A stretch of 39,724 bases of DNA from Bacillota bacterium (GTDB taxonomy: Bacteria > Bacillota > SHA-98 > UBA4971), in the NCBI GenBank assembly GCA_024653485.1, contig JANLFY010000020.1, forward strand, positions 1 through 39,724. The letters are read 5' to 3'. Positions 1 to 34,390 of this stretch are shown here, in pieces; within the stretch, counting starts at the first letter, position 1, and each line of letters opens with the position of its first letter. Made by a program: the position numbers and the translations under genes. Below the pieces are notes generated by a model. The model made no database searches. It had not been told where the DNA came from and was given only the letters and a program-made list of their open reading frames with translations.

Positions 1-229
1 AGATCCCCGATCCCGAAAACCCCCTCTGTGTGCCCTGTCACTGTCGAACCCGGGTCCAGGCTTCTAACGATATGCCAGCTGTGGGGCCCCTTGCCTTCGT
101 TCGAAAGAAAGCACGGCGCACTCGTCACGAACACCTGAATCGTTGTAGGACTTCGCTCAGACTTCGCGGGGCCCCGCGTCTTTGCCACAATCTCAACTTG
201 CAGCTCTTAGTCATGGGAGGCGTGACTAC
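1..229. other. Leader region, no gene seen
   Basis: No convincing coding sequence or RNA gene is visible here. The frame of the following HD-GYP gene is closed by a TAG at 146-148, so that gene does not enter from outside the window. No clear promoter was recognised. Confidence 0.4.
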
Positions 230-907
230 GTGCTCGAGCAGATCGTCGCAGAACTGGGTGCCTGGAAGAGATTGGGGCCGATCAGAAAGCGTGATCTCCT
301 TGTCGCCGTGGCTGCGCTCGTGGATATTCGTTGTCCGTTCACTGCAGCCCACTCGACGAGAGTTGGCACGTATAGTGAGATCATCGCTCAGGAAATGGGG
401 CTCATTCCCAGCATCCAAAAGAGTTTGAGGCTGGCTGGACTCGTCCATGACATCGGAAAGATTGGAGTGCCCAAAGCCCTCCTTCAGAAGAGCGGCATCC
501 TGACAGAAGCAGAGAGCGCGGAGATTCGCAAGCATCCCCTCCTGAGCTACGACATCGTCTCCGACGTGCCCGGCCTTCTCGCCATCGCCAACATCGTTCT
601 CTTCCATCACGAGCGCTGGGACGGGCATGGATATCCGTACGGAATTCGGGGTGAGGAGATACCTCTTGGATCGCGCATACTCTGCGTGGCCGACAGCTTC
701 GACGCTATGATCAGCGAGCGCCCGTACCGACCGGCGGTCGCCGTTAGCGACGCCCTGAGAGAACTAGAGCGATGTGCAGGTACGCAGTTTGATCCTGATG
801 TGGTCCAGTGTTTCAAATCATACGTTCAACAGAGAGGCTTAAAGCTCTCTCCGAACGCGACAAGCAAGCGCTCCACATCCAGTCTTGACCCCAAGCAGCC
901 AGACTAA
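230..907 (+). CDS. HD-GYP domain protein (putative cyclic-di-GMP phosphodiesterase)
   Basis: This encodes about 225 residues that are almost entirely an HD-GYP domain, the family that hydrolyses cyclic di-GMP. Metal-ligand and signature motifs are present in order: AAHSTRV, LVHDIGKIGVP, FHHERWDGHGYPYG (the GYP motif) and CVADSFDAM. No receiver, sensor or membrane segment is present, so it is probably a soluble stand-alone enzyme. I place the start at the GTG at 230 because GGGAGG lies at 215-220 with a 9-nt spacer. An in-frame TTG at 182 would add 16 residues but has no ribosome-binding site. It lies 49 bp upstream of the fapA-like gene on the same strand and is probably co-transcribed with it. 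The biochemical activity is inferred from the motifs. Confidence 0.85.
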   Translation: MLEQIVAELGAWKRLGPIRKRDLLVAVAALVDIRCPFTAAHSTRVGTYSEIIAQEMGLIPSIQKSLRLAGLVHDIGKIGVPKALLQKSGILTEAESAEIRKHPLLSYDIVSDVPGLLAIANIVLFHHERWDGHGYPYGIRGEEIPLGSRILCVADSFDAMISERPYRPAVAVSDALRELERCAGTQFDPDVVQCFKSYVQQRGLKLSPNATSKRSTSSLDPKQPD

Positions 908-956
908 CCAACGCAACCAGCGCGTTGCTACCATCAAGTTCAGGGAGTGCTGACGT

Positions 957-2957
957 GTGGCAAACAAGGAAGTAGTCATCCGAGGTAGGACGGTGCAAGA
1001 GGCTAGCCTCGTAGCCAGCAGGACTCTGAAGGTCGACAAGAACGGTCTTCGCATAGAGGTGATGTCGAGAGGACGACGGGGTTTCTTCGGCTTGTTCAAG
1101 CGCCCGGCCGTCATTAGGGTGACGGTCGTCCCGCCGGGTGATGACCTGAAAGACAAGGAAGAACACTGCGGGTCACGGCGCGACCATATCGACGGGATGG
1201 CCGCGGTGAGTGGTGGCAGACTGCAGTTGTGGAACCCGCGCGGCAAGGGACAGCCTGCAGTGATCATCCCGACGTCAGGGGCTATCCTACGTGTGAACGG
1301 CGTCGCCACAAACGCCCCTAGACCAGTGCGTGAAGATGACGAAGTAGATGTGGAGCTTGTGAAGGAAGTCCGTCCTGGCCGGGTTGAGGTCGAGGTCTCT
1401 CAAGACGGCCTTTCGGCGACCGCAAAGGTAACCCCGCAGGTTACCATCAGCCATGAACTAGTCGACCAGGATCCCCAGAACGTGCTCGAGTTGCTGACTC
1501 GCTCCCATGAAGAGCGAACCAACGTTATCACTGCTGCTCAAATCGAAGAGGCATTGCGGCAGCAAGGGGTGACCTTCGGGCTCGATCACGAGGAGATCAT
1601 GCGGACAGCTGATGCAGCTGACGGGGTCCCACGAGTGGTGGCCAGAGGTAAGCCGGTCCAGGAAGGGCGGAACGGCTTTGTCGAGTACTTGTTCGACTGG
1701 AAGCCAACGGAAATCGCGTATGCAGATGACGAAAGAGCCGATTACTGGGAACGGTACGTCTTCCCTTCCGTAAGGGAAGGTGAGGTGCTGGCCGAACTCC
1801 GCCCTCCAGTGGCGGGTACCCCAGGCATGAAGGTGACTGGAGAAGTGGTCTTACCTCGTCCTGTCAGAGAAGCGGTGTTGCGGGCGAAGGACGGAGTCCG
1901 GATCAGCGAAGACGGCCGAAAGGCTATTGCGGCCATCGCCGGCAGGCCCGTGCTTGAAGGCCGTTGGACGCCGTACCTGAGGGTCGCGCGACTGATGGTG
2001 CACCCAGGCAACATAGACATCAAAAGCGGGAACGTGCGCTTCTGGGGGGATCTACTGGTCCTCGGCAACGTCACAGAAGGGGCCGAGGTGTGTGCTCACG
2101 GCGATATCACCATACTGGGGGATGCCACTGGCGCCGTGATCCGAGCAGGCGGTAGAGTGGTCTGCCGCGGGAGGTCAATCGGGTCCCGCATCTATGCGGG
2201 TGGCCTGAACTCGTTACACGCCCGACTGGCCCCCATACTGAATGACCTCCAAGAGGCGCTCGTCTGGATCATTCAGGAGACGACTAGGATCCAGCAGCAT
2301 CCCTCCAATCAAGGGAGGCTGGAGAAGGGCGACATCAACAGGGTCGTCAGGCTCCTCGTCGAGAGGAAGAGGAAAGAGCTCAACGAGATCGCGACCGAGT
2401 ACGCTGCTGCCCTTCAAACTGCTAATCTGCCGTTTCCGAATGCCGTTCGTGAGTTGGTGCAGGATGTCATGAGCATAACTGTCGGTCCGATAGCTCGGAC
2501 GGGCCCTATTCCCGACGACCTGAGGAGGGTACTTGAGAAGAAGGAGGAAGTCGACTACCTGGTCGACTCATTGCCCGATCATCCGGGAGACATCATTTGC
2601 TCTTATGTGCAGAACAGCGTCCTGGAAGCCAGCGGCAGCATCACAGTGGTGAATGAAGGCTGTTTCCATTCGACCCTCCTCGCGGGCAAGCAAGTTGAGA
2701 TCAAGGGTGTCTTTCGTGGTGGAAAGATACAAGCTGCGGGGAGCGTATTCGTCAAGGAGGCGGGATCGCCTGGGCTGCCCGCGGGGAAAGTCAAAATCAA
2801 GGTTCCAGAACAGTCCACCGTGAGGATTCTCAACGTCCATCCCGAGACGACTGTCCAGGTCGGTCGTCGCTCCCACGTTTTCGATAAGGAGAACGGTCCC
2901 GTGAGGGTATACCTCGGGCCGAATGGAAGTCTCGTCATCGAAGATTTCCGAGTATGA
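957..2957 (+). CDS. FapA family protein (DUF342) with N-terminal Jag-N domain
   Basis: This 666-residue protein of the FapA/DUF342 family has a GTG start with AGGGAG 9 nt upstream. Residues 1-58 look like a Jag-N domain: the helix region VQEASLVASRTL is followed by RRGFFGLFKRPAVIRV. The middle holds the DUF342 region with the typical PPVAGTPGMKVTGE segment. After it come beta-helix-like repeats rich in G-x-I/V turns, near residues 340-420. A charged helical stretch at about 420-540 may be a coiled coil, and a second beta-helix segment follows near 555-610. FapA-type proteins have been linked to flagellar assembly and to polymer-forming scaffolds, but the molecular role is not settled. It follows the HD-GYP gene, which suggests a shared function in cyclic-di-GMP or surface regulation. 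No signal peptide is seen, so a cytoplasmic location is likely. Confidence 0.85.
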   Translation: MANKEVVIRGRTVQEASLVASRTLKVDKNGLRIEVMSRGRRGFFGLFKRPAVIRVTVVPPGDDLKDKEEHCGSRRDHIDGMAAVSGGRLQLWNPRGKGQPAVIIPTSGAILRVNGVATNAPRPVREDDEVDVELVKEVRPGRVEVEVSQDGLSATAKVTPQVTISHELVDQDPQNVLELLTRSHEERTNVITAAQIEEALRQQGVTFGLDHEEIMRTADAADGVPRVVARGKPVQEGRNGFVEYLFDWKPTEIAYADDERADYWERYVFPSVREGEVLAELRPPVAGTPGMKVTGEVVLPRPVREAVLRAKDGVRISEDGRKAIAAIAGRPVLEGRWTPYLRVARLMVHPGNIDIKSGNVRFWGDLLVLGNVTEGAEVCAHGDITILGDATGAVIRAGGRVVCRGRSIGSRIYAGGLNSLHARLAPILNDLQEALVWIIQETTRIQQHPSNQGRLEKGDINRVVRLLVERKRKELNEIATEYAAALQTANLPFPNAVRELVQDVMSITVGPIARTGPIPDDLRRVLEKKEEVDYLVDSLPDHPGDIICSYVQNSVLEASGSITVVNEGCFHSTLLAGKQVEIKGVFRGGKIQAAGSVFVKEAGSPGLPAGKVKIKVPEQSTVRILNVHPETTVQVGRRSHVFDKENGPVRVYLGPNGSLVIEDFRV

Positions 2958-3030
2958 TGCGGAGTTTTCACGTTCAGATGGCGTCCGCTTGATGCAGCGT
3001 TCTGTGACACGAGGACGTTAAGCGCGAGAA

Positions 3031-3055
3031 AGCCCGGTCCCGTCGGGACCGGGCT
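3031..3055. terminator. Strong palindrome between convergent genes
   Basis: A perfect 12-bp inverted repeat (AGCCCGGTCCCG with its complement, one base at the centre) lies 74 bp after the fapA-like stop and before the stop of the opposing small gene. Neither side has a long T-run. It could act as a bidirectional terminator or as an RNA 3'-end stabiliser. Confidence 0.55.
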
Positions 3056-3113
3056 CGGCCTGTGAAGGAGACCGCAAAGCCTCATTACAGGGAATCGACG
3101 GTTGCTCGCGGCA

Positions 3114-3434
3114 TCATAGCTGCACGGAGTCAACAGACACGCTGCAGATTCTGTCGATGGGAATGGCGATTGCCCTGACCACTTGGGTCTCCACCAGTTG
3201 TCCGCCGCTTATCGTCTTCACCACGATGCAACCGTCGTTGCAACCCACCAAGACGAGGAATTTGTCGATTATCTTCCGGATCTTGGCATTGAGGGCCTTC
3301 TTGCAGCATTCACCGCATTCGAATTCGACGGCGAGACAGAGCGACTCAAGATCTCCGATGGGTTTGAGCGCCCCGAGCAGCGGATGAGGAACGATGCCGG
3401 AATCTATGGGGCCCTTCGTCTCTTGTTCTTGCAT
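3114..3434 (-). CDS. Small Cys-containing protein of unknown function
   Basis: This encodes 106 residues that I do not recognise. It is supported as a real gene by a very strong ribosome-binding site: GGGAGGT lies just upstream of the ATG, read on the minus strand. The sequence has a CGECC cluster near residue 40, then a basic helix (KIRKIIDKF), then a beta-rich part containing the GCNDGCIVV segment and a further Cys (RICSV). Five or more cysteines in 106 residues suggest metal binding or disulfides, as in some spore or envelope proteins, but this is speculation. It has no signal peptide or membrane segment. It is convergent with the fapA-like gene and shares the palindrome between them. Confidence 0.6.
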   Translation of the reverse strand: MQEQETKGPIDSGIVPHPLLGALKPIGDLESLCLAVEFECGECCKKALNAKIRKIIDKFLVLVGCNDGCIVVKTISGGQLVETQVVRAIAIPIDRICSVSVDSVQL

Positions 3435-3799
3435 CTTCTCTTACCTCCCTGTCACTTGAGGTTGGGCATGAACCTGTCTACTGCCCGTAGCAGTCTATGC
3501 TGGATGTACTGAAGGTGTTACTTGTGCTAAGGCCGAATCCTCGCGCCGATTTCCTTTATACTCCGTGTCGCTTAGGAGCCAGCGATGGCGGGTTTGCGGG
3601 CTTGGTGCTCGCGCACGACCAAAAGATACCGAGTCGGGCGGACCGGCCGTGAGAGTTCGTGAAGACTGCGCCGGAGGCGCGTGTTCCTGCGGGAAGCGCG
3701 GGAAGCGCGGAGGAAGGGCGTGCCCGGCAGGGAGCCCTTCCTCCGTGTGCAAGTCGGTCCCTCTCGCGCGGGTGTGGGAGGTTCTCTCAGTTGGGTTGG
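3435..3799. other. Intergenic region between pyrP end and the small gene
   Basis: This gene-free stretch contains a promoter-less GC-rich segment. It includes a short direct repeat (GGGAAGCGC twice, about 3691-3708) and a perfect 12-bp inverted repeat, annotated separately. The ribosome-binding site of the small minus-strand gene is at its left edge. Open frames here are short and show no recognisable protein. Confidence 0.4.
3708..3745 (-). terminator. Candidate terminator hairpin after pyrP
   Basis: CGGAGGAAGGGC (3708-3719) and its exact complement (3734-3745) form a 12-bp stem with a 14-nt loop, 55 bp past the permease stop codon. No T-run follows on the minus strand, so the terminator role rests on position and stem strength. 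Confidence 0.45.
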
Positions 3800-5137
3800 C
3801 TAGGAGCGGGCTTGCGCTGCCTGGTCCCTCGCGGGGCCGACTCTGACCGGGAAGAACTCGAACACGAGGTTCAGCACGATGCCGAAGATGGCCGCGGTCG
3901 CGATCGCCGGTAGGTTCATGCCGAATGCCGGGATCATCCCGTTGGGAAAGGCGAAGCTGCCTCCGATGCCGATCACCAGGACGGTAGCGGCGACCGCAAG
4001 GGTCCTCGCGGAGAAGAGGTCCACCCTCTCAGAGATCATCAGAGCCACGCCCTGCACGCCTATCACGCCGAAGAGGTAGATGGAGACGCCGCCTATTACG
4101 GCTCCCGGCACGCTGCTCACTGCGGCAGCCAGCTTCCCGAAGAAGGACAGGCCCATGGCGATGGCGGCCGCCAGCACGAGAACCGGAACGGAGAAGTTGC
4201 GAGTGATAGCCATGACGCTGTTGTTCTCGCCGTAGTTCGTGCCTGCTGGTCCACCGATCGCTCCCGCGATTATGTCTCCGATGCCGTCACCGATGAGATT
4301 GGTGCCCAAAAGGCTTGCGATGGGATAGGTTTTCTTGCGTCCGAGTTGCCTGGCGAGGTTGTTCACGTACAGGTCTATCTGGTAAAGGTGTGCTGTGGAT
4401 TCCGGGATGGTGGCGATGGCGATGGGCATGATGGCAAGAATCGCTGCGGGGCTCCACGACGGGAATGTGAAATGGGGGGCGGTCACAGCGGCGGCCTCGC
4501 CTATCTTGGCGAAGTCCACCAGCCCCAACGGTATGCTGACAACGTATCCCACTGCCACCCCTAGGAGGACCGGGAGTTGCCCGAGCGTTCCTCGGAGGTA
4601 CACCGAGAAGAGGATAGTGGCAAGGAGCGTAACGATGCCGACAGTCCAGTTGCTCGCGGTGCCACTCATCGCCTCGTCGGCGAGAGCTATTCCGATGACC
4701 ATCGCCACGCTGCCCGTCACGACCGGCGGCAGCACCTTCTCCACTTTGTCCCTTCCGAATCGGTTTATGACCGTGCCTGCCAGGATCGAGACGAGACCCG
4801 AGGCTATGATACCGCACTGTGCCTGAGAAATCAGTGCATCAGGAGCGACGGTCCCGAGCGCCTTCACGCCGGTGATGGCCGCCACCGCGGCGATGTACGA
4901 GAAACTCGAGCCGTAATAGAGAGGGATTCGACCACGGGTGACCAGGATGAAGCCCAGGGTGGCAAGACCGCTAGCGAATAGCGTGGTGGATACGTGGAAT
5001 CCGGTGAGGAGTGCCACTAGCACCGTAGCCGGGAACATGACGACCACCTGCTGCAAGGCGAAGAACACTAGTCTCCACGCTGGGGGCGTGTCATCAGGAA
5101 GGTAGCCGACGATCTGGGTGTTTGCCTGAGTAGACAT
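3800..5137 (-). CDS. pyrP: Uracil permease (NCS2 family)
   Basis: This 445-residue polytopic membrane protein of the NCS2 (nucleobase:cation symporter-2) family has about 12-14 hydrophobic segments. Family motifs include YYGSSFSYIAA near the N-terminus, the conserved PEST segment (IATIPESTAH) and GGPAGTNYGENNSVMAITR. The start at 5137 is chosen because AGGAGGT precedes this ATG. The longer open frame upstream lies in the untranslated leader. The substrate is assigned as uracil rather than xanthine or urate because the leader carries a PyrR-binding hairpin and attenuator, the standard control of pyrimidine genes in firmicutes. It lies downstream of a nucleoside-type ABC transporter on the same strand but has its own promoter, so it is probably regulated separately by UMP/UTP through PyrR. 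Confidence 0.92.
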   Translation of the reverse strand: MSTQANTQIVGYLPDDTPPAWRLVFFALQQVVVMFPATVLVALLTGFHVSTTLFASGLATLGFILVTRGRIPLYYGSSFSYIAAVAAITGVKALGTVAPDALISQAQCGIIASGLVSILAGTVINRFGRDKVEKVLPPVVTGSVAMVIGIALADEAMSGTASNWTVGIVTLLATILFSVYLRGTLGQLPVLLGVAVGYVVSIPLGLVDFAKIGEAAAVTAPHFTFPSWSPAAILAIMPIAIATIPESTAHLYQIDLYVNNLARQLGRKKTYPIASLLGTNLIGDGIGDIIAGAIGGPAGTNYGENNSVMAITRNFSVPVLVLAAAIAMGLSFFGKLAAAVSSVPGAVIGGVSIYLFGVIGVQGVALMISERVDLFSARTLAVAATVLVIGIGGSFAFPNGMIPAFGMNLPAIATAAIFGIVLNLVFEFFPVRVGPARDQAAQARS

Positions 5138-5193
5138 ACTGCTCGACCTCCTATGGTGTTGATCTGTTCGGTTACCCCCGGAGCGGGACACAC

Positions 5194-5230
5194 AAAAAGG
5201 CACTTCCTCCTGCCGGACAGGAAGTGCCTT
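5194..5230 (-). terminator. Attenuator terminator in the pyrP leader
   Basis: On the minus strand a perfect 12-bp stem (AAGGCACTTCCT with its complement, 10-nt loop) runs directly into TTTTT. This is an intrinsic terminator lying between the pyrP promoter and the pyrP start, 57 bp upstream of the ATG. Its placement after a PyrR-binding motif identifies it as the regulated terminator of a pyr attenuator. Confidence 0.9.
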
Positions 5231-5263
5231 GCAATCAAGCGTGCCTGCTCATACTCCCTTGCC

Positions 5264-5277
5264 GGCCTCGCTGGACC
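5264..5277 (-). promoter_or_regulatory. PyrR-binding loop (anti-antiterminator)
   Basis: The minus-strand RNA contains GGUCCAGCGAGGCC, which matches the conserved PyrR-binding loop (UCCAGNGAGGY type) of pyr operon leaders. It sits between the promoter and the attenuator terminator. Flanking CCCTT and AAGGG segments can form the lower stem. With UMP or UTP, PyrR would stabilise this hairpin and let the terminator form. The mechanism is inferred from the family; pyrR itself is not in the window. Confidence 0.82.
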
Positions 5278-5307
5278 GTCTTAAAGGGTAACCTTGTCTT
5301 AACTAGC

Positions 5308-5337
5308 AGTATAATGTCATGTCCCCGAGCGTGTCAA
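5308..5337 (-). promoter_or_regulatory. Sigma-A type promoter for pyrP
   Basis: On the minus strand TTGACA (5332-5337) and TATACT (5308-5313) are separated by 18 bp, close to the vegetative consensus. Transcription would start near 5300 and read through the PyrR site and attenuator before pyrP. Confidence 0.8.
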
Positions 5338-5549
5338 GAAGAGGTGTCGAAGAATGTCAAAGCTGGCGTCCGCAGGAGGAGGAAGCGAGGAAGATTCGGT
5401 CTTCGCGTGAAAGCCGCGTCCGTGCCGAGCCTTTGGGGTCGACGGGCATCGTCCCCGCGGCGTTTCGGGATTGCCGGCGGCGCGCAAGGGAGGGTTGGCT
5501 ACAGGGCACGAGCGGAGCTGCCCCTCAAAACCTCGCGTGGCCACCAGCA

Positions 5550-5581
5550 ATCCCGCGACACAGTGATCCCGCGACACACTG
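5550..5581. repeat. 16-bp tandem direct repeat, two copies
   Basis: ATCCCGCGACACAGTG (5550-5565) is followed immediately by the same 16-mer with one change (5566-5581). It lies between the end of the ABC transporter operon and the pyrP promoter. No function is evident. Confidence 0.75.
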
Positions 5582-5617
5582 AAATGGACCGCCCGCGGCG
5601 CAAGCAATCTCACCAGG

Positions 5618-6757
5618 CTAAGCCTGATCCGGCGCCGCAAGCGCTTCCTGCGCCGCCCGCTGTGCCGTTCGTCCTCGCCACGCGTGCAGCGCCAGCGCGA
5701 CGCCGATGATTCCGTATGCCACGAACACCCTGAAGTACTCCCCCACCTGAGGCACGCCCAGCAACTTCTGGCCTGCAAGCGGCGACACCACGAAGAGCGT
5801 GTGGAAGAGGATCACGCCTACTATGGCATGCCATATCGTTGCGCGCTGCGTTGTGGCGCCTCCCACGAGAAGAGCCGCTATAGAGAACATGCCGACCTGC
5901 TCGTGGCTGTTATAGGTGTTCAGCGTGCCGATGTTCTGCAGGAAGACGAGTTGTCCCCAGGCGGCTATGACCGTGGAGAGTATCATGGCTATGATCCTGG
6001 TCTGATTCACCTTGATCCCCATGATCTCCGCGATGTGGAGATCCTGCCCAACCGCTCGCATGTCTTGTCCCAGTTTGGTCCTTAAGACAAAGGTTATTGC
6101 CAGGCACATGAGCGCCCCCAGCGCCAGCGTGACCACGGGTATGCGCACCCCGCCCACGAACGGCCAGATGATCATGTCGAGAGACTGCGCGGTGGCGATC
6201 AGGTCGACCGTGTTCCGCAGGCCCACTCCCGACGGTAGGAGAAGGGAGGGGTTCTTCATGGGTATGACCGACCCGACCAGGAAGAGAAATATCAGCTGGT
6301 AGATACCATTGACGAAGAAACCCAGTATCATACTGGTGATCATCTCTCGTCCCTTCGCCATGTTCAGCACGTGACCTGCAAACCATCCCGCAAGGACGGC
6401 TACGGGGGTCGCAAGCAGACACGCGAGGAGGAGACCTCCGATACCCGGCACGCCCCAGTACGTCACCACGATTATCGCGGCTTGGCCTGCCATAGCGCCT
6501 ATTACGATGCCGAAGTTGAGTCCCATCCCGGCGGTCACCGGGATGAGGAGCGACAGCACCAACAGGGAATTGCGCGCGAGTCGCGTGACCACCTCGTTCA
6601 GCAGAAATGTCACATCCAGCCCCGCGACGATCACCATCGCCAGCGAAAGGGCAAGGAACAGGGCAGGCACGCTATTCGCCGCAAGCTGGCGCCGGACACC
6701 GGAGAAGACACTGCCGCCCGCTACGGCTGTGGTCTTGGCTCGCGAAACCTCTGCCAT
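5618..6757 (-). CDS. ABC transporter permease (nucleoside/BMP-type), second subunit
   Basis: This 379-residue inner-membrane permease of the BPD_transp_2 family (sugar/nucleoside and branched-chain amino acid type) has about 8-10 hydrophobic segments. The AGMGLNFGIVIGAMAGQ segment and the later GAWGQ-like and EQVGMFSIAALLVGGATTQRA stretches are typical of paired permeases of BMP-family nucleoside importers. The ATG has GGGAGGT upstream, embedded in the last codons of the preceding permease gene, so translation is probably coupled. It is the last gene of a four-gene operon and resembles the 346-residue permease before it, as expected for a heterodimer. The substrate cannot be read from the sequence; a nucleoside or similar small ligand is inferred from the family and the neighbouring uracil permease. 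Confidence 0.85.
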   Translation of the reverse strand: MAEVSRAKTTAVAGGSVFSGVRRQLAANSVPALFLALSLAMVIVAGLDVTFLLNEVVTRLARNSLLVLSLLIPVTAGMGLNFGIVIGAMAGQAAIIVVTYWGVPGIGGLLLACLLATPVAVLAGWFAGHVLNMAKGREMITSMILGFFVNGIYQLIFLFLVGSVIPMKNPSLLLPSGVGLRNTVDLIATAQSLDMIIWPFVGGVRIPVVTLALGALMCLAITFVLRTKLGQDMRAVGQDLHIAEIMGIKVNQTRIIAMILSTVIAAWGQLVFLQNIGTLNTYNSHEQVGMFSIAALLVGGATTQRATIWHAIVGVILFHTLFVVSPLAGQKLLGVPQVGEYFRVFVAYGIIGVALALHAWRGRTAQRAAQEALAAPDQA

Positions 6758-6761
6758 GTCT

Positions 6762-7802
6762 CTACTTACCTCCCGTCGCCCGCGTGAGAGCGTAAAGGAT
6801 CATGCCGTTCGAGATGATGAGTCTTGCTACCTCCGAGATGTCGCCTTGGATGACCCTGCTTGTGACCGGAAGCGCGATCGTCAGAAGGGTCTGAAAGAGG
6901 ACCGTGCCCACGATGACGTTGGATATGGTCGCCCTCTGCAGCCGCGCACCGCCGATGAGAATCGAGGCGACCGCCGGAAAGGCCATCATGAGAGGTGCCA
7001 GGTAGAGCTGGAGGAACCCGTAGCTTTGGGCGTACACGATGATGCCGACGGCACCTAGGACCGTCGAGAGCATGACGCCCGCAGCCTTCATTCGCCGGAC
7101 GTCAATGCCCGCGGATCTTGCGAAGAGGGGGTTCGTCCCAGCGGCCAACATGGCGATTCCGAGTTTCGTCCGGAAAAACAGGTACACAAGGAAGCACAAC
7201 AACAAGAAGAACCCGAGCAGCCCTCCTGAGACGCTCACACCGAACACGTTGAATACCAGGAAGTTGTTGAGCACCTTCCCGAAGTGATTGCTCAAGGTTA
7301 GGGTATATCTGAGACCTTGCCCACCGATAGCCCATATGAGCGCCGGGTTCTTGAACGGAGCCATCAGCCAGAAGACGCACATCAGGGCGACTATGGAGAA
7401 CCCCGCGTACGTTCCGACCATCATCTCCTGTCCCCTGACGCTCTCGAGAAGCCTCGCGTACGCGTACCCGACCAGGACGGCGAGGGGCACTGCGCAGCCT
7501 ACGGCGGCGAAGAATCCCGCGAATCCGCGAAGGTTCATCTCCATGCTGATGAGGGACCCTACGAGGCCACAGATGATCCCGAGTGGAAGCCCGAAGTTGA
7601 GCCCCACACCGCACGCGATCGTGGGCACCATGGCGAGCACGAGGACGCCGTTCATCCCCACCCTGATTAGGGAGTCGCTGATGAGCTGGGGCACGGACAT
7701 CTTCGTGGCATAGGCGACCGCGAAGAGCGCCGCGAGGAAGCCCGCGATGATCAGCCTCGGGACCCCGATTTGCTCGACTAGCTGACGAAGGTTTACGCGC
7801 AC
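6762..7802 (-). CDS. ABC transporter permease (nucleoside/BMP-type), first subunit
   Basis: This 346-residue multi-spanning permease is the partner of the gene that follows. The start is the GTG at 7802, two nucleotides after the ATPase stop, with GGAGG about 10 nt upstream. The longer frame runs backwards into the ATPase gene and is rejected. Typical permease segments include CGVGLNFGLPLGIICGLVG near the N-terminal third and MMAFPAVASILIGGARLQRA near the C-terminus, a stretch that is a paralogue of the motif in the second permease. The tight spacing on both sides indicates a single transcript and translational coupling within the binding protein-ATPase-permease-permease operon. Confidence 0.85.
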   Translation of the reverse strand: MRVNLRQLVEQIGVPRLIIAGFLAALFAVAYATKMSVPQLISDSLIRVGMNGVLVLAMVPTIACGVGLNFGLPLGIICGLVGSLISMEMNLRGFAGFFAAVGCAVPLAVLVGYAYARLLESVRGQEMMVGTYAGFSIVALMCVFWLMAPFKNPALIWAIGGQGLRYTLTLSNHFGKVLNNFLVFNVFGVSVSGGLLGFFLLLCFLVYLFFRTKLGIAMLAAGTNPLFARSAGIDVRRMKAAGVMLSTVLGAVGIIVYAQSYGFLQLYLAPLMMAFPAVASILIGGARLQRATISNVIVGTVLFQTLLTIALPVTSRVIQGDISEVARLIISNGMILYALTRATGGK

Positions 7803-7804
7803 TG

Positions 7805-9415
7805 CTACACCGCCTCCTTCCGGATCCTGGCCCCGCCAGCCATCATGAGGCCGAACTCGGCATCGGGCGCGTCGGGCGGCAGGATGCCCGCCAGCTTGCC
7901 GCCGTACACTATGGCGATTCTGTCGCATATCTTTCGCAGCTCGCCGAGCTCGCTCGACGTCATCACGACGGTGACGTTTCGCTCCCTATTCAGGCTGACC
8001 AGCAGGTCGAGCACGAGTTTCTTCGCGCCCACATCGATGCCTCGCGTCGGCTCGGACACGAGGAGTATCTCCGGATCGAGGGCGAGAGCCTTTGCTATGC
8101 ACACTTTCTGTTGATTCCCACCCGAGAGCCTGCGCACCGGTTGGCCGGGCCCCGTACACCTGATGTCGAGCTTGCGAATGACCTCTTCTGTATGGGAACG
8201 CAACGCGGCGCGGTCCTCCAGCTTGAGCGCTGGAACACGAGGCCACCTCGCCAGGAACTTGTTCTGAACTTGCATCGCAACGGTCCCAATGTTGCGCTCG
8301 ATGGACTCGTCGAGGAGGAGACCCACTCCGCGCCGGTCCTCGGAAACGAACGCGAGCCCCATCCCTAGCGCGCGCTGAGGGGAGTTGAGCGGCACCTCGG
8401 TCCCGTTCTTGCTGACCTTGCCTGAGGCGGGGTAGAGGCCCATGATCCCGTTGGCGATGCCTATCTTACCGTGCCCGGCTAGTCCGCCGATACCCAGGAT
8501 CTCGCCACGACGGACGGCCAAGGACACGCCTCGGACCACCTCCCCCGGCATGTTGACCACGAGGTTCTCAATGGCGAGGGCTATGTCCTCGTCCGAAGGG
8601 TCTTTGCTCCTGCCGGGAAGGTCGACCTTCTCGACTTTCCTTCCGACCATCAGCTCGGCTATCCTTTCGAGGACCGCTTCATCGCGAGAGAGCCTCGACA
8701 CGACCTCGCCGTCTCTGAGCACCGTGATCTTGTCGGCCACCGCCATTACCTCGGCAAGGCGGTGTGTGATGAAGAGGATCGCTATACCTTCGGCTGCCAG
8801 GCGCCGGAGCGCGTCGAGGAGCCGTTCGGCCTCTGTCTCCGTGAGCACCGCGGTCGGCTCGTCGAACACCAGGATTCTGACGTTTTGCTTGTCGATCTCT
8901 CTGGCGATCTCGATGAACTGCATGTACCCCACGGGAAGCCCCGCCACCTGGATCCACTCGTTTATGCCCAGGTCAAGGCGGGATAGTGCCGCGCGGGCGT
9001 CTTTCCGCATTGCCGGGATGTCCAGGTAATCGAGGGCACGCGTCCGGCATGATCTGCTGACGAGATTCGGACGCGTGATCTCTCGGTTGAGTTTGATGTT
9101 TTCGGTCACGGTGAATCCCGGAAGAAGCATGAACTCCTGGTGCACCATGCCTATGCCCAGATCCATCGCAGCGCGAGGTGAGGGGATGTCCACTTTCTGG
9201 CCGCCCACGAGTATTTCCCCCGAGAAACCGCCGGTGCTGTGGATGACGGGCATGCCGAATAGGATGTTCATCAGCGTGGACTTTCCCGCTCCGTTCTCGC
9301 CTACGAGGGCGTGGATCTCACCCGGCTCGACGTCGATGGACACGCCGCTCAACACGGTGTTCCCGAAATACTGTTTTGTGATGTCCCTCATTTCCAGGGC
9401 CTTGGAATGACTCAT
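7805..9415 (-). CDS. ABC transporter ATP-binding protein, two nucleotide-binding domains
   Basis: This 536-residue ATPase with two fused nucleotide-binding domains is of the sugar/nucleoside importer type (NupO/RbsA-like). In domain 1, Walker A is GENGAGKST (39-47) and Walker B is ILVFDEP (181-187), but the signature is an unusual LPVGYMQ (about 160-166) instead of LSVGxxQ. Domain 2 has a degenerate Walker A (GLAGHGKIG), a canonical signature (LSGGNQQK) and LLVSEPTRGIDVG. Loss of the second Walker A is normal in this family, which often has one competent site. The ATG has GGAGAGG upstream. It lies between the binding-protein gene and two permease genes and energises that importer. Confidence 0.9.
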   Translation of the reverse strand: MSHSKALEMRDITKQYFGNTVLSGVSIDVEPGEIHALVGENGAGKSTLMNILFGMPVIHSTGGFSGEILVGGQKVDIPSPRAAMDLGIGMVHQEFMLLPGFTVTENIKLNREITRPNLVSRSCRTRALDYLDIPAMRKDARAALSRLDLGINEWIQVAGLPVGYMQFIEIAREIDKQNVRILVFDEPTAVLTETEAERLLDALRRLAAEGIAILFITHRLAEVMAVADKITVLRDGEVVSRLSRDEAVLERIAELMVGRKVEKVDLPGRSKDPSDEDIALAIENLVVNMPGEVVRGVSLAVRRGEILGIGGLAGHGKIGIANGIMGLYPASGKVSKNGTEVPLNSPQRALGMGLAFVSEDRRGVGLLLDESIERNIGTVAMQVQNKFLARWPRVPALKLEDRAALRSHTEEVIRKLDIRCTGPGQPVRRLSGGNQQKVCIAKALALDPEILLVSEPTRGIDVGAKKLVLDLLVSLNRERNVTVVMTSSELGELRKICDRIAIVYGGKLAGILPPDAPDAEFGLMMAGGARIRKEAV

Positions 9416-9487
9416 GTCGCGGGCCTCTCCTCTCCTTGCGGCATCCTGGAGCGGCGGCTGCCTTTCCGCCGTCCCAGACGCGGAAAT

Positions 9488-9518
9488 GAAGTGCCGGGTA
9501 GGTCTTACCCGGCACTTC
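9488..9518 (-). terminator. Intercistronic hairpin after the binding-protein gene
   Basis: GAAGTGCCGGGTA (9488-9500) and its exact complement (9506-9518) form a 13-bp stem with a 5-nt loop in the 137-bp gap between the binding-protein and ATPase genes. Only a weak T-rich tail (ATTT) follows. Such hairpins usually act as a partial terminator or 3'-end stabiliser that raises binding protein above membrane components. Confidence 0.7.
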
Positions 9519-9552
9519 CACTCTCCGCCTACATGGAACGTGCCGCGGGCAA

Positions 9553-10671
9553 TCAGAACTTATCCTTGCCGAATATCACCGATCCGCTGGTGAGGAGGTA
9601 GAAATTCCCCTTCTTCTCGTCGTACTTCTTGACGTTCATCTTCACACCAGCGAGCGATTCGAGCTTAGCGGCGACTGCCTTCGTGTCGTTCAGCTTGATC
9701 TTGCCGGCGATCGCGTCGCGCGCGAGCTCCACGCCAGCCTCGACGAAGAGCATGTTCACGGGCACGGGCCAGGTGGCGAACCGTCCGGCGCCGCCCTTCG
9801 CGACGATGGCGTCATTGATGGCCTTCAGGATGGCAGGCATGTTGCCCTTCATCTCTTCCTTGATCTCGAGGCCGAGAGCTCCGGGGTAACCATGAGTCGG
9901 GCTCGGGCAGCACTGCTCGGGGAAGATTGCCCCGGTCTGCAGCGCGGATGTGATGAGCGGCTCCTGCATCGCGCAGTTCGTGCTGAACACCGCGATGTTC
10001 TTGCCGTACTTCGCGACCTGCCTCGGGACGTCCTCAAGGATGAACTGCTGCGCTCCCGGGATTCCGGATTCGCCCATTGGGTCGGGAGCCGTCACGAACA
10101 CGAACTCCATCCCCAGCTTCTCGCACTCAGCTTTCATGATGTCGCGCCGCTTGGCCAAGAGCTCCATGGACATGTGCCGCGGGAAGGAATAGTGAAGGAA
10201 CTTCTGAGCGCCGAGCTGCTTTGCGAGCCTTACGATGGTCTCGCCACGGGCAAGGTTATCCGTCTCGAGGACGACGTCCGCAGTGTCATTCACTATGGCC
10301 GGGTCCTCGTGCGGAACCCCCAGCAAGAAGATGATATCAGGCCGCGTTGCACGCACTCTCCTGATCGCGGCGACGGTGCCGGGCACCGCCTGGCAGACTA
10401 CGATCGCCTTGACGTTCTTGTCAGCGGCCATGCCCGTGATCTGAGCTATGGTCGTCTCCTGCTCCTGCATGAAGTTGTCAGGATAGGTGACATGCTTGAT
10501 CATGTCGCCGTACTTTGCCTTCACTTTCTCGGCGCCGCGGTACTCATCCTCACCTTGGGAGACGGTGCCCGTGACGACCCCTATCTTGTAAGTCCCCTGA
10601 GCCATCCCGGAGAAGCCGATCATTCCCACGAGAAATGTCAAAACCAACAAGCAAACGATGAATCTCTTCAT
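9553..10671 (-). CDS. Periplasmic binding protein, DUF3798-like
   Basis: This 372-residue secreted substrate-binding protein is the first gene of the ABC importer operon. Residues 1-25 form a classical signal peptide (basic start, hydrophobic core, cleavage near GMAQG). There is no lipobox cysteine, which is unusual for a monoderm firmicute but fits a diderm cell with a true periplasm. The mature part begins with YKIGVVTGTVSQGEDEYRGAE, which I recognise as typical of the DUF3798 group of binding proteins related to the BMP/nucleoside class. The ATG has GGGAGGT upstream. The ligand is unknown; nucleosides are a guess from the permease type and the nearby uracil transporter. Confidence 0.8.
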   Translation of the reverse strand: MKRFIVCLLVLTFLVGMIGFSGMAQGTYKIGVVTGTVSQGEDEYRGAEKVKAKYGDMIKHVTYPDNFMQEQETTIAQITGMAADKNVKAIVVCQAVPGTVAAIRRVRATRPDIIFLLGVPHEDPAIVNDTADVVLETDNLARGETIVRLAKQLGAQKFLHYSFPRHMSMELLAKRRDIMKAECEKLGMEFVFVTAPDPMGESGIPGAQQFILEDVPRQVAKYGKNIAVFSTNCAMQEPLITSALQTGAIFPEQCCPSPTHGYPGALGLEIKEEMKGNMPAILKAINDAIVAKGGAGRFATWPVPVNMLFVEAGVELARDAIAGKIKLNDTKAVAAKLESLAGVKMNVKKYDEKKGNFYLLTSGSVIFGKDKF

Positions 10672-21786: not shown

Positions 21787-22623
21787 TCACAACGTGGCGC
21801 TCAAGACCCCTTCCATGTCCGCCACCATGGCAATGCGCTCGTCTTCGAGCACGGCCGTCCCCAGGAGGTTCGGCCCGGCGAAAGCGGACGCGAGAGGCTC
21901 GACCTCCACGTCTCGCTTCCCGACGATCTCGTCCACCACCACGCCAACCTGCCGCTCCCCGTCGTTCACTATCACGACGTAGAGCCTGTCCGTCACGAGG
22001 GCTGCGGAAACATCCGCGCCCAGCACCCCGAGGGGCGTGCCCGACGCGTCCTTCACGGGCGTGGACACAGTGACGCAGAGCGAGTCCGTTGCCGCGGACA
22101 CGTACTTCTCGGAAACGCACGTCGCGCCCTGGATAGCGTTTCGGAACCACGATCGGGAGGACCAGTCCTGGCCAGACACCTCGAGCCCAGCCGCTGTCTC
22201 CAACACTCCCTTTCTCGTGAGCGGTCCGGCGACAAGACGACCGTCGCGCCTCACGACGAACGCGACTTCCAGGAACGGATGCGCCTCGAGAAGCTCAACG
22301 AGCGTCGCCAGCGCGGCACGCGGATTCATGGACACGACTCGATGGTCGAGGGCGGCCTTTTCCAGCACCGATTTGGCCTTGTTTGTTGCCTCGTCGATGC
22401 TGAGGTTCTGGCAGAAGTCTTGAAAGCCTGCCTTGCGATGCGTTCGCGTCGAGGCGAACACGTCGGACAGCCAGACAAGGGGGACGACTCGTCCCCGGAC
22501 GGTCATGGCGGCCTTACCCTTTGCCGCCTTCACGTCGGACCGCAGTGCACGCACAACCTCCACTACGTTGTCAAGCGGAAGCCCGTACAACCTCTCGTGT
22601 GCCGAGACCAGTAGCACGTTCAA
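21787..22623 (-). CDS. CheW-like protein interrupted by a Cache sensor domain
   Basis: This 278-residue protein has a TTG start with GGAGGT 8 nt upstream. Residues 1-56 read as the first half of a CheW fold (LLVSAHERLYGLPLDNVVEVVRAL, then GRVVPLVWLSDVF). Residues about 70-205 look like a Cache/PDC sensor: an amphipathic helix, EVAFVVRRDGRLVAG, then the typical W-x-x-R-x-W-F and V-S-E-K-Y-V-S-A run, and TVSTPVKDASGTPLGVLGADV. Residues 212-278 return to the second half of CheW/CheA-P5 (YVVIVNDGERQVGVVVDEIVGKRDVEV, then GTAVLEDERIAMVADM). So the sensor seems inserted between the two CheW subdomains. There is no signal peptide or membrane segment, so the Cache part would be cytoplasmic. It lies next to the flagellar/chemotaxis operon but is transcribed away from it. 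It might couple a soluble ligand directly to CheA. Confidence 0.75.
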   Translation of the reverse strand: MNVLLVSAHERLYGLPLDNVVEVVRALRSDVKAAKGKAAMTVRGRVVPLVWLSDVFASTRTHRKAGFQDFCQNLSIDEATNKAKSVLEKAALDHRVVSMNPRAALATLVELLEAHPFLEVAFVVRRDGRLVAGPLTRKGVLETAAGLEVSGQDWSSRSWFRNAIQGATCVSEKYVSAATDSLCVTVSTPVKDASGTPLGVLGADVSAALVTDRLYVVIVNDGERQVGVVVDEIVGKRDVEVEPLASAFAGPNLLGTAVLEDERIAMVADMEGVLSATL

Positions 22624-22798
22624 GGCGCACACCTCCGTTCTCCGCGTGTCCCGCGTGCTGGCAAGAATAGCGCGCGTACTGTATTCTCGCTCGCAGGCTT
22701 CATCTCCTGCAGGGCTGAGGGTGTCACAGGCGCCCGGGGCGCAAGGGCCGGGGTGCTGCTCGGTGGCGACGTGCGGACGCTCGGGCCTCAAGGTGTGA

Positions 22799-32164: not shown

Positions 32165-34390
32165 GTGGCGGAAGGATACACTCTTAGTCCCGAAGACGTG
32201 AAGCTCTTCCTCGACGAGACCCTCGATCAGCTCGAGGTTCTGGAGGAGGAGATAGTCAAGCTGGAGGGAGAAGGACACGACCCGCACCTCCTTCAGGACA
32301 TGTTCCGGATCGCGCACACCGTCAAAGGCTCGTCGGCGACCGTGGGACATTCGAGCATGTCCACCCTTGCTCATGCAATGGAGGACGTGTTTGCGGCGAT
32401 GCGCGACGGCAGGCTGGCGCCTTGCCGGGAACTCGTGAACGTGCTCTTGGAAGCGGTGGATGGCCTTCGGCGGCTCGCGGCGGAATTCGAGACGGCAGGT
32501 GGTTCGGGCACCGAAGGCGAGGACGGGATCGACGTCGGGGCCCTCGTGGCAAGGCTGTCGGAGTCCGCATCCCTCGGAGCGGGCGCATACGAGGTGCGGG
32601 TGAGGTTCGCCGAAGACACCGTGATGCCCCCTGTGCGTGCGCTGCAAGTGATCCAAGCGCTCCAGGGGCTCGGCACGGTGGCGGGGTCGCGTCCGTCGAT
32701 CGATGAGATCAGAGCGGAGAAGGCTGGTCTCGATCTCTCGGCAGTCTTGGTGCTCACGGCGCATGTCGAGGAGGCGGAGGTCGAGAGAAAGGTACGCGAG
32801 GTCAGCGATGTGCGGAGCGTGGAGGTATGCCGTTTCAGGTCGGAGGACCACGAGCGTGACGCTCGTGGCGCTGAGGGTGGTGTGGATGCCAAGGCATCTG
32901 CTTCACCCGGGCCCGGTGCGGAGGTGCAGTCGGGTGTTCATGACGGAGCGGTGACGCCTGGCGACACCGATCGTGTCGACGGGAGGCAACGGGAGTCGGG
33001 TGGCAACGGCGGGGCCGAGAACGGTGGGGAGCCTCAGCCCACGGATGTCCCGAGGCTCTTGGGCAGGGCACAAGGAGAGACCATTCGCGTCGGCATAGAG
33101 GCGTTCGACAGGCTCGTTCGAATAGTATCCGAGCTTGCGATAGACGAGGCGAGACTGGCCGAGGTACAGAAACGCCTTTCGCTGCTGGAAGGGCGCCTGG
33201 ACTGCATCGAGGACCTCGAGCAGATAACCTCGCATATGGCTCGGCTCACGACGGAGCTCCAAGAGGAAGTCATGAAAGCCAGGATGACCCCGCTGGCGAG
33301 CCTCTTCAAGCGGTTCCCCAGAATGGTTCGGGATACCGCGTCCAGCTCTGGCAAGCTGGTGGATTTCGTGGTCGAAGGGGAGGACACCGAGCTCGATCGC
33401 GCACTGATAGAAGAAGTAGCTGACCCCATAATCCACCTCCTTAGGAACGCTGTGGGGCATGGAATCGAGCCGCCCGAGGAGCGAGTGCGACGCGGAAAGC
33501 CAGAGAAGGGAAGGGTGAGGCTGGCTGCGCGACACGTGGAAGACCGCGTCGTGATAGTGGTGGAAGACGACGGCGGGGGCATTGACCTGGTGCGAGTCCG
33601 CGAGGCGGCCGTTCGCAAAGGGCTCATAGCCCCCGAGGCTGCGGAAGCTCTCTCGGACGAGGAGACCATAGAGCTCATCTTCCAGCCGGGATTCTCAACC
33701 GCGAGCCAAGTGAGCGACGTGTCGGGACGAGGCGTGGGTCTGGACATAGTCCGCACGAACATCGAGAAGCTTGGCGGGACTTTGAGAGTGAGAACGTCCC
33801 CCGGCAAGGGATCAACCTTCGTCCTGTCGGTGCCGCTTACGCTCGCCGTGTTCAGGGCCCTCCTGGTGGACTCCTGCGGTCAGGAATTCGCTGTGCCGTT
33901 GTCGTCGGTGGTAGAGGTCACGCGCGTGTCCCTTTCGGAGGTCAAGCCTGTCGGTCACGGGCAGGCGATAGTCCTCAGGGGCAGAGTGCTTCCCGTCTTT
34001 GACTTGAGGGACTTCGCGGGAGGAGGCGGAGGGACGGTTACGATAGATCCCGGCGGCGATCCAGGCGGCGCCCCCGCTGAAGGCGCAGGAAACTTCCTCG
34101 AGCGACCCAGCGACCGCGCGTTTGTGGTGGTCGCGAAGTACGAGGACATGCGAGTGGGCATCATCGTCGATTCCCTCCTTGGAGAGCAGGAAATAGTCAT
34201 CAAGAGCCTCGGCAAGCTCGCAAGGTCCGCCAGGGGTGTGCTCGGAGGGGCTATCCTCGGCGACGGACGCGTCGCCCTCATCCTGGATGTTGCGAGGGTG
34301 CTCGAGAAGGCAATGGGCCGCACCCACGTCACCGGACCGGGAGTCGAAGGAGGGAACGAAGATCGCTCCGATTACCAGTTACACTGCTAG
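32165..34390 (+). CDS. cheA: Chemotaxis histidine kinase CheA
   Basis: This 741-residue CheA has all five domains. P1 carries the phosphorylated His51 in FRIAHTVKGSSATVG. P2, about residues 140-215, is of the CheY-binding type, and a Gly/Ser/Glu-rich linker follows (215-290). P3 is the dimerisation helix pair, and P4 is the ATPase (LLRNAVGHGIEPPEE, VEDDGGGID, RGVGLDIVRTNIEKLGG). P5 is the CheW-like coupling domain near the C-terminus. The N box reads NAVGHGIE where most CheA proteins have NAVDHGIE; the Asn needed for Mg-ATP is kept. The GTG start lies 15 bp after flgL. It phosphorylates CheY and CheB encoded downstream and is expected to be activated by receptors through CheW. Confidence 0.96.
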   Translation: MAEGYTLSPEDVKLFLDETLDQLEVLEEEIVKLEGEGHDPHLLQDMFRIAHTVKGSSATVGHSSMSTLAHAMEDVFAAMRDGRLAPCRELVNVLLEAVDGLRRLAAEFETAGGSGTEGEDGIDVGALVARLSESASLGAGAYEVRVRFAEDTVMPPVRALQVIQALQGLGTVAGSRPSIDEIRAEKAGLDLSAVLVLTAHVEEAEVERKVREVSDVRSVEVCRFRSEDHERDARGAEGGVDAKASASPGPGAEVQSGVHDGAVTPGDTDRVDGRQRESGGNGGAENGGEPQPTDVPRLLGRAQGETIRVGIEAFDRLVRIVSELAIDEARLAEVQKRLSLLEGRLDCIEDLEQITSHMARLTTELQEEVMKARMTPLASLFKRFPRMVRDTASSSGKLVDFVVEGEDTELDRALIEEVADPIIHLLRNAVGHGIEPPEERVRRGKPEKGRVRLAARHVEDRVVIVVEDDGGGIDLVRVREAAVRKGLIAPEAAEALSDEETIELIFQPGFSTASQVSDVSGRGVGLDIVRTNIEKLGGTLRVRTSPGKGSTFVLSVPLTLAVFRALLVDSCGQEFAVPLSSVVEVTRVSLSEVKPVGHGQAIVLRGRVLPVFDLRDFAGGGGGTVTIDPGGDPGGAPAEGAGNFLERPSDRAFVVVAKYEDMRVGIIVDSLLGEQEIVIKSLGKLARSARGVLGGAILGDGRVALILDVARVLEKAMGRTHVTGPGVEGGNEDRSDYQLHC

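Follow-up and report, generated by a model that had tools for sequence, protein, structure and literature searches.

A predicted soluble CheA P5-type protein with half of a double Cache domain between its subdomains

Sequence comparison and structure modelling identify a gene in a 39,724-nucleotide stretch of Bacillota DNA (the window) as encoding a soluble, kinase-less domain of the CheA P5 type, 278 amino acids in total, in which half of a double Cache (dCache_1) domain lies between the two P5 subdomains. The original prediction had described this protein, hereafter P5-Cache-P5, as a CheW fold split by a Cache sensor. The three findings that it had named as fatal (ends that do not form one domain, a middle that is not Cache, and a frameshift joining two genes) were each tested and none was found. 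The assignment of the split domain to CheW was not upheld.

Gene and domain architecture

The gene and the segments of its product were delimited as follows.

21787..22623, minus strand: whole gene for the P5-Cache-P5 protein, 278 aa, soluble, TTG start
22631..22636, minus strand: ribosome-binding site GGAGGT, 7 nt 5' of the start, from the sequence
22453..22623, minus strand: first part of the P5/CheW-like subdomain pair, residues 1-57 (Pfam CheW positions 2-64, CheA-P5 profile, model)
22399..22452, minus strand: linker, residues 58-75, variable in length and sequence (alignment gaps, relaxed dN/dS, low pLDDT)
22006..22398, minus strand: Cache/PDC domain, residues 76-206, half of dCache_1 (Pfam, PctA match, structural matches)
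21988..22005, minus strand: junction, residues 207-212, short and ungapped, between the final Cache strand and the second P5 part (alignment, model)
21790..21987, minus strand: second P5/CheW-like part, residues 213-278 (Pfam CheW positions 65-136, CheA-P5 profile, model)

The TTG start codon is located at 22621-22623 and the stop codon at 21787-21789 of the minus strand. The reading frame is open 5' of the TTG as far as 22977. In the orthologues, just 5-47 in-frame codons precede the common start, and the GGAGG(T) ribosome-binding site is kept in all six; the start giving 278 residues was therefore accepted as correct, and the short upstream frames and shared GGAGG site leave no room for an overlooked N-terminal membrane segment. 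Hydropathy analysis of the 278-aa protein found no signal peptide or membrane helix, as had been claimed from the sequence, and since the maximum 19-residue Kyte-Doolittle value is 1.45, the protein was taken to be soluble.

The Pfam CheW family (PF01584) matched both ends of the gene, with profile positions 2-64 at one end (E 8e-8) and 65-136 at the other (E 4e-10). Both half-matches score above the Pfam cut-off, and the profile stops and restarts at 64/65 around the Cache match with no positions lost between. When the middle (147 aa) was searched alone, it matched dCache_1 with an E value of 1e-10 and 42 bits, just below the cut-off of 45 bits, and MCP-like_PDC_1 with an E value of 1e-7, above the cut-off. 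Membership of the Cache superfamily, as proposed for the middle, is thus supported by MCP-like_PDC_1 and by structural matches, with dCache_1 below its cut-off; the sensor comprises one PDC, not two. A phmmer search of the PDB led from the middle to PctA and from the ends to CheA. Within the 278-aa protein, no Pfam match was obtained to the P1, P3 or P4 domains of the CheA kinase, to a receiver domain, or to a CheR domain, so that the composition is neither that of CheV (receiver) nor of the CheWS type (CheR).

AlphaFold2 modelling with an 86-row alignment gave a mean pLDDT of 88.9 and a pTM of 0.71. Confidence was low in the linker (pLDDT <50 at residues 61-71) and at residues 143-145 and nowhere else, and the modelled strands of the first P5 part were mostly above 90. 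In this model both ends are predicted to form one P5 fold, which agrees with the single split CheW-like barrel that had been proposed. The best Foldseek match was chain A of 4jpb (Thermotoga CheA P5), with a TM score of 0.86 on 131 residues over 274 columns; because so many columns were spanned for a 131-residue target, both ends must have been used. The top eight Foldseek matches were to CheA without exception; sensor domains, among them those of Mlp37, PctA, CtaA and Tlp3, came next, and the structural matches 4jpb, 2ch4 and 1b3q are CheA P5. MAFFT had wrongly aligned complete P5 rows over the Cache gap and mixed half-domains; the 86 rows are a subset chosen so that each row was aligned in the right place. 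Because the P5 rows in this subset are mostly half-domains placed at either end, the model is not independent of the sequence alignment and is partly shaped by it. When the alignment consisted of the six orthologues alone, AlphaFold2 returned a pLDDT of just 37.6.

Scaffold identity and probable place in the array

The NCBIfam matches for the gene ends were to CheA only, as were those in the PDB. A CheA-P5 profile gave 48 bits for the first half and 38 bits for the second, compared with 19-39 bits for whole CheW proteins. In a 62-row tree, the CheW rows formed one clade (100/100) with the split proteins outside it, and the split proteins fell with CheA P5 (100/100), their exact position inside the P5 clade being left unsettled by this tree. 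They also lack the AP-x-FVEGV segment, which is specific to CheW, as well as the longer CheW C-terminal segment. These results, together with the structural matches to CheA P5, argue that the split domain is of the CheA-P5 type and not a CheW. P5-Cache-P5 thus resembles CheA P5 in clade, in fold (best structural match) and in the absence of CheW-specific segments, but it stands alone without P1-P4 and is interrupted by the Cache. With CheW and CheV it shares a CheW-like fold and a presumed array location, but it lies outside the CheW clade, has no receiver domain, and carries its sensor nested within the fold.

An origin of the split domain by recent duplication of the P5 from this genus's CheA is not supported by the 62-row tree, in which the split proteins fall outside the P5 of their own family's CheA. 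The site at which the Cache is inserted is occupied in the CheA of this genus by a long linker rich in Gly and Pro and, in the second CheW, by insertions, which indicates a site that tolerates added sequence. The insertions that CheA P5 and the second CheW of the genus bear at this site are long and of low complexity (cheA at window 32165-34390; loci L081, L067, L002, L063 and L068).

The P5 domain shows strong binding to CheW but only weak binding to receptors (PMC6954272), and a kinase-less P5 is therefore likelier to dock on CheW than to couple receptors to CheA. P5-Cache-P5 would accordingly be placed in the baseplate ring through P5-CheW interfaces, at the position of a CheA P5. The same binding preference, the solubility of the protein, and a P5-type domain without P3 or P4 would also suit a ligand-gated decoy, that is, a free P5 mimic off the array that, according to its ligand state, keeps CheW away from CheA or lets it go. 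We regard such a decoy as unlikely; the conserved fold and rigid junction suit docking in the array equally well. It is rather improbable that the protein is a genuine CheW that links chemoreceptor tips to CheA and takes an extra input from the Cache. Its fold is CheW-like, and E22 and R43, which align with the E38-R62 residue pair described in CheW (PMC3828127), are both kept; however, the tree and the missing segments described above place it apart from CheW, and two ordinary CheW genes are already present in the genome.

Cache pocket, putative ligand and proposed input

Cache domains are the main extracellular sensor family of prokaryotes. That a Cache should occur without a membrane anchor had been presented as a departure from this rule; the protein is indeed soluble, but cytoplasmic Caches of this type also occur at the C-terminus of many Bacillota chemoreceptors. 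The closest full-domain matches to the Cache were mainly Bacillota chemoreceptors in which it follows the MCP signalling domain and is hence cytoplasmic. These full-length matches suggest that the Cache was derived from C-terminal MCP Caches, an origin that is left unsettled by a Cache tree whose rows were picked by similarity to the split-protein Cache.

A C-terminal half-dCache_1 was seen in many Bacillota chemoreceptors (L013, L032, L034, L036, L037, L040, L096 and others; 31 rows), and the Arg, Trp and Tyr of the pocket are unchanged throughout the 29 aligned C-terminal chemoreceptor Cache rows. A 251-aa open frame (L042, genome G312) combines a helical N-terminal region with a C-terminal half-Cache. 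Such chemoreceptors (for example L013, L034, L036, L037 and L040) share near-whole Cache homology and an R/W/aromatic/Y pocket with P5-Cache-P5, but they carry the Cache on an MCP signalling domain, whereas here it is carried on a baseplate scaffold.

Two pocket residues were located by phmmer alignment to PctA.

22153..22155, minus strand: codon of Arg157, equivalent to PctA R126 (carboxylate contact)
22012..22014, minus strand: codon of Asp204, equivalent to PctA D173

The carboxylate of the PctA ligand is contacted by R126 and a key contact to the ligand is made by D173, the Y129 position having a structural role (PMC10104139). Four residues are identical to PctA (R126=R157, W128=W159, Y144=Y174, D173=D204), while Y129 corresponds to F160 and Y121 to Q152. 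Five of the six positions of the PctA amino-acid motif are thus kept if F160 is counted as Phe for Tyr, and the full dCache_1AA motif (Y121, R126, W128, Y129, Y144, D173) is absent owing to Q152 and F160. All six equivalent residues are invariant across the six species of the genus, and Arg157 is invariant in 6/6 orthologues and in the 29 C-terminal MCP Caches. In a related Cache motif, that for amines, one mismatch can be enough to abolish binding (PMC10104139). Judging from these residues, our best guess is that the cytoplasmic Cache binds an amino-acid-like ligand, although the Q152 change calls for caution. The domain is similar to the dCache_1 amino-acid sensors PctA, CtaA and Mlp37 in family, motif positions and structural matches, but differs in being half of a double Cache, in being cytoplasmic, and in having no membrane helices.

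Loss of the PctA Y121 equivalent could also mean that the Cache has ceased to sense and acts on an array component as a spacer or dimerisation module, and Cache and PAS domains frequently dimerise. This seems quite improbable, as no variation occurs at the remaining pocket positions and the evolution of the Cache (dN/dS 0.10-0.24) is nearly as slow as that of the P5 parts.

The CheA/CheW baseplate is usually viewed as a passive relay of receptor signals. In our preferred reading, which we consider evenly poised between right and wrong, P5-Cache-P5 would dock into this baseplate via CheW and a cytoplasmic amino-acid-like ligand would tune the array. The Cache, to judge from its retained pocket, would bind an amino acid or a related metabolite; binding would shift the last Cache strand and, through the fixed six-residue junction (207-212), the second P5 subdomain; and the shifted P5 module would grip its CheW neighbours differently, altering array coupling and CheA activity. 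Interface 2 is reported to set array coupling (PMC5181776). An internal signal could in this way reach the chemotaxis machinery with no membrane receptor involved, and an organism with few such receptors could steer by its internal metabolic state. The proposal that the protein feeds CheA directly and bypasses a transmembrane receptor is a plausible hypothesis. We more tentatively put forward, as a possibility that leans towards doubt, that P5-Cache-P5 represents a new type of input, in which a kinase-free P5 with a nested Cache takes CheA positions and a change in the scaffold ring, rather than in a receptor, sets the output.

A precedent for the concept is CheWS of Treponema denticola, in which CheW is joined to a CheR-like SAM sensor; this cytoplasmic sensor protein binds CheA and drives chemotaxis (PMC10653840). 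The resemblance is one of concept only: both proteins are soluble scaffolds with a cytoplasmic small-molecule sensor, but the sensor of CheWS follows an intact CheW, whereas the Cache is nested inside the P5-type domain. The same paper lists 30 undescribed CheW architectures (Fig. S10), and a CheW-Cache combination may already be among them. The searchable literature (CheW-Cache, discontinuous CheW, cytoplasmic Cache) yielded no account of a P5-type domain interrupted by a Cache, in line with the original prediction, which knew of no described protein of this architecture. P5-Cache-P5 is rated here as a variant of array-fused sensors. It would extend Cache domains to a cytoplasmic scaffold and offer a compact template for ligand-gated arrays. 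With a nested sensor whose output strand runs into the second scaffold half, it would also permit a direct test of whether distortion of P5 alone changes kinase output or cooperativity.

Conservation and genomic setting

Full-length orthologues with the same domain order, for which a search had been proposed, were identified in each of the six genomes of this genus at about 68-79% identity. No full-length match was obtained in roughly 770 other Bacillota genomes, drawn from the class (17 genomes), a phylum sample (398), and further Bacillota (22 and 380). A scan of 84,980 species with genus-specific peptide patterns, which would miss distant relatives, returned four matches only, all from uncultured Bacillota MAGs of the same genus, and a plasmid search gave a partial match to the Cache region only. 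Pairwise dN/dS over the whole gene is 0.11-0.22 among the orthologues. Both P5 parts and the Cache are under purifying selection, the linker (residues 58-76) is the sole long relaxed stretch, and the junction at residues 207-212 has no length variation across the six species. An assembly join, a frameshift or a decayed two-gene fusion, which an unusual architecture in a MAG might suggest, has negligible probability and was refuted by the identical, uninterrupted ORF under purifying selection in six independently assembled species.

The gene is located between murD and flgF and is divergent from the flagellar genes. The order murD, P5-Cache gene, flgF is kept in the four genomes for which both flanks were compared (the window and three others). 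In another species (L023 in G001, positions 1-10000), the murD side is kept and the flagellar genes do not adjoin the P5-Cache gene. Next in the window come flgG to flgL, cheA, cheC, cheY, cheB, cheR, a gene for an HD protein, fliW and cheW, some of these neighbour names being taken from sequence reading only. A candidate promoter was noted upstream of the gene.

22682..22710, minus strand: upstream element GCAGGARAT-N12-CGAGAATA, promoter candidate

The element has equal spacing in five of the six orthologues. Its one exact match in the genome is the copy listed here and, because a second is absent, it marks no regulon. A sigma-28-type promoter upstream of the gene was not supported over shuffled sequences.

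The genome (G000) contains three MCP matches, one CheA and the two ordinary CheW genes, and the Cache of P5-Cache-P5 is its sole dCache_1 match. With three MCP matches and no other dCache_1, the protein may be a main metabolic input to motility. The sensory repertoire of this genome is small for a flagellated organism.
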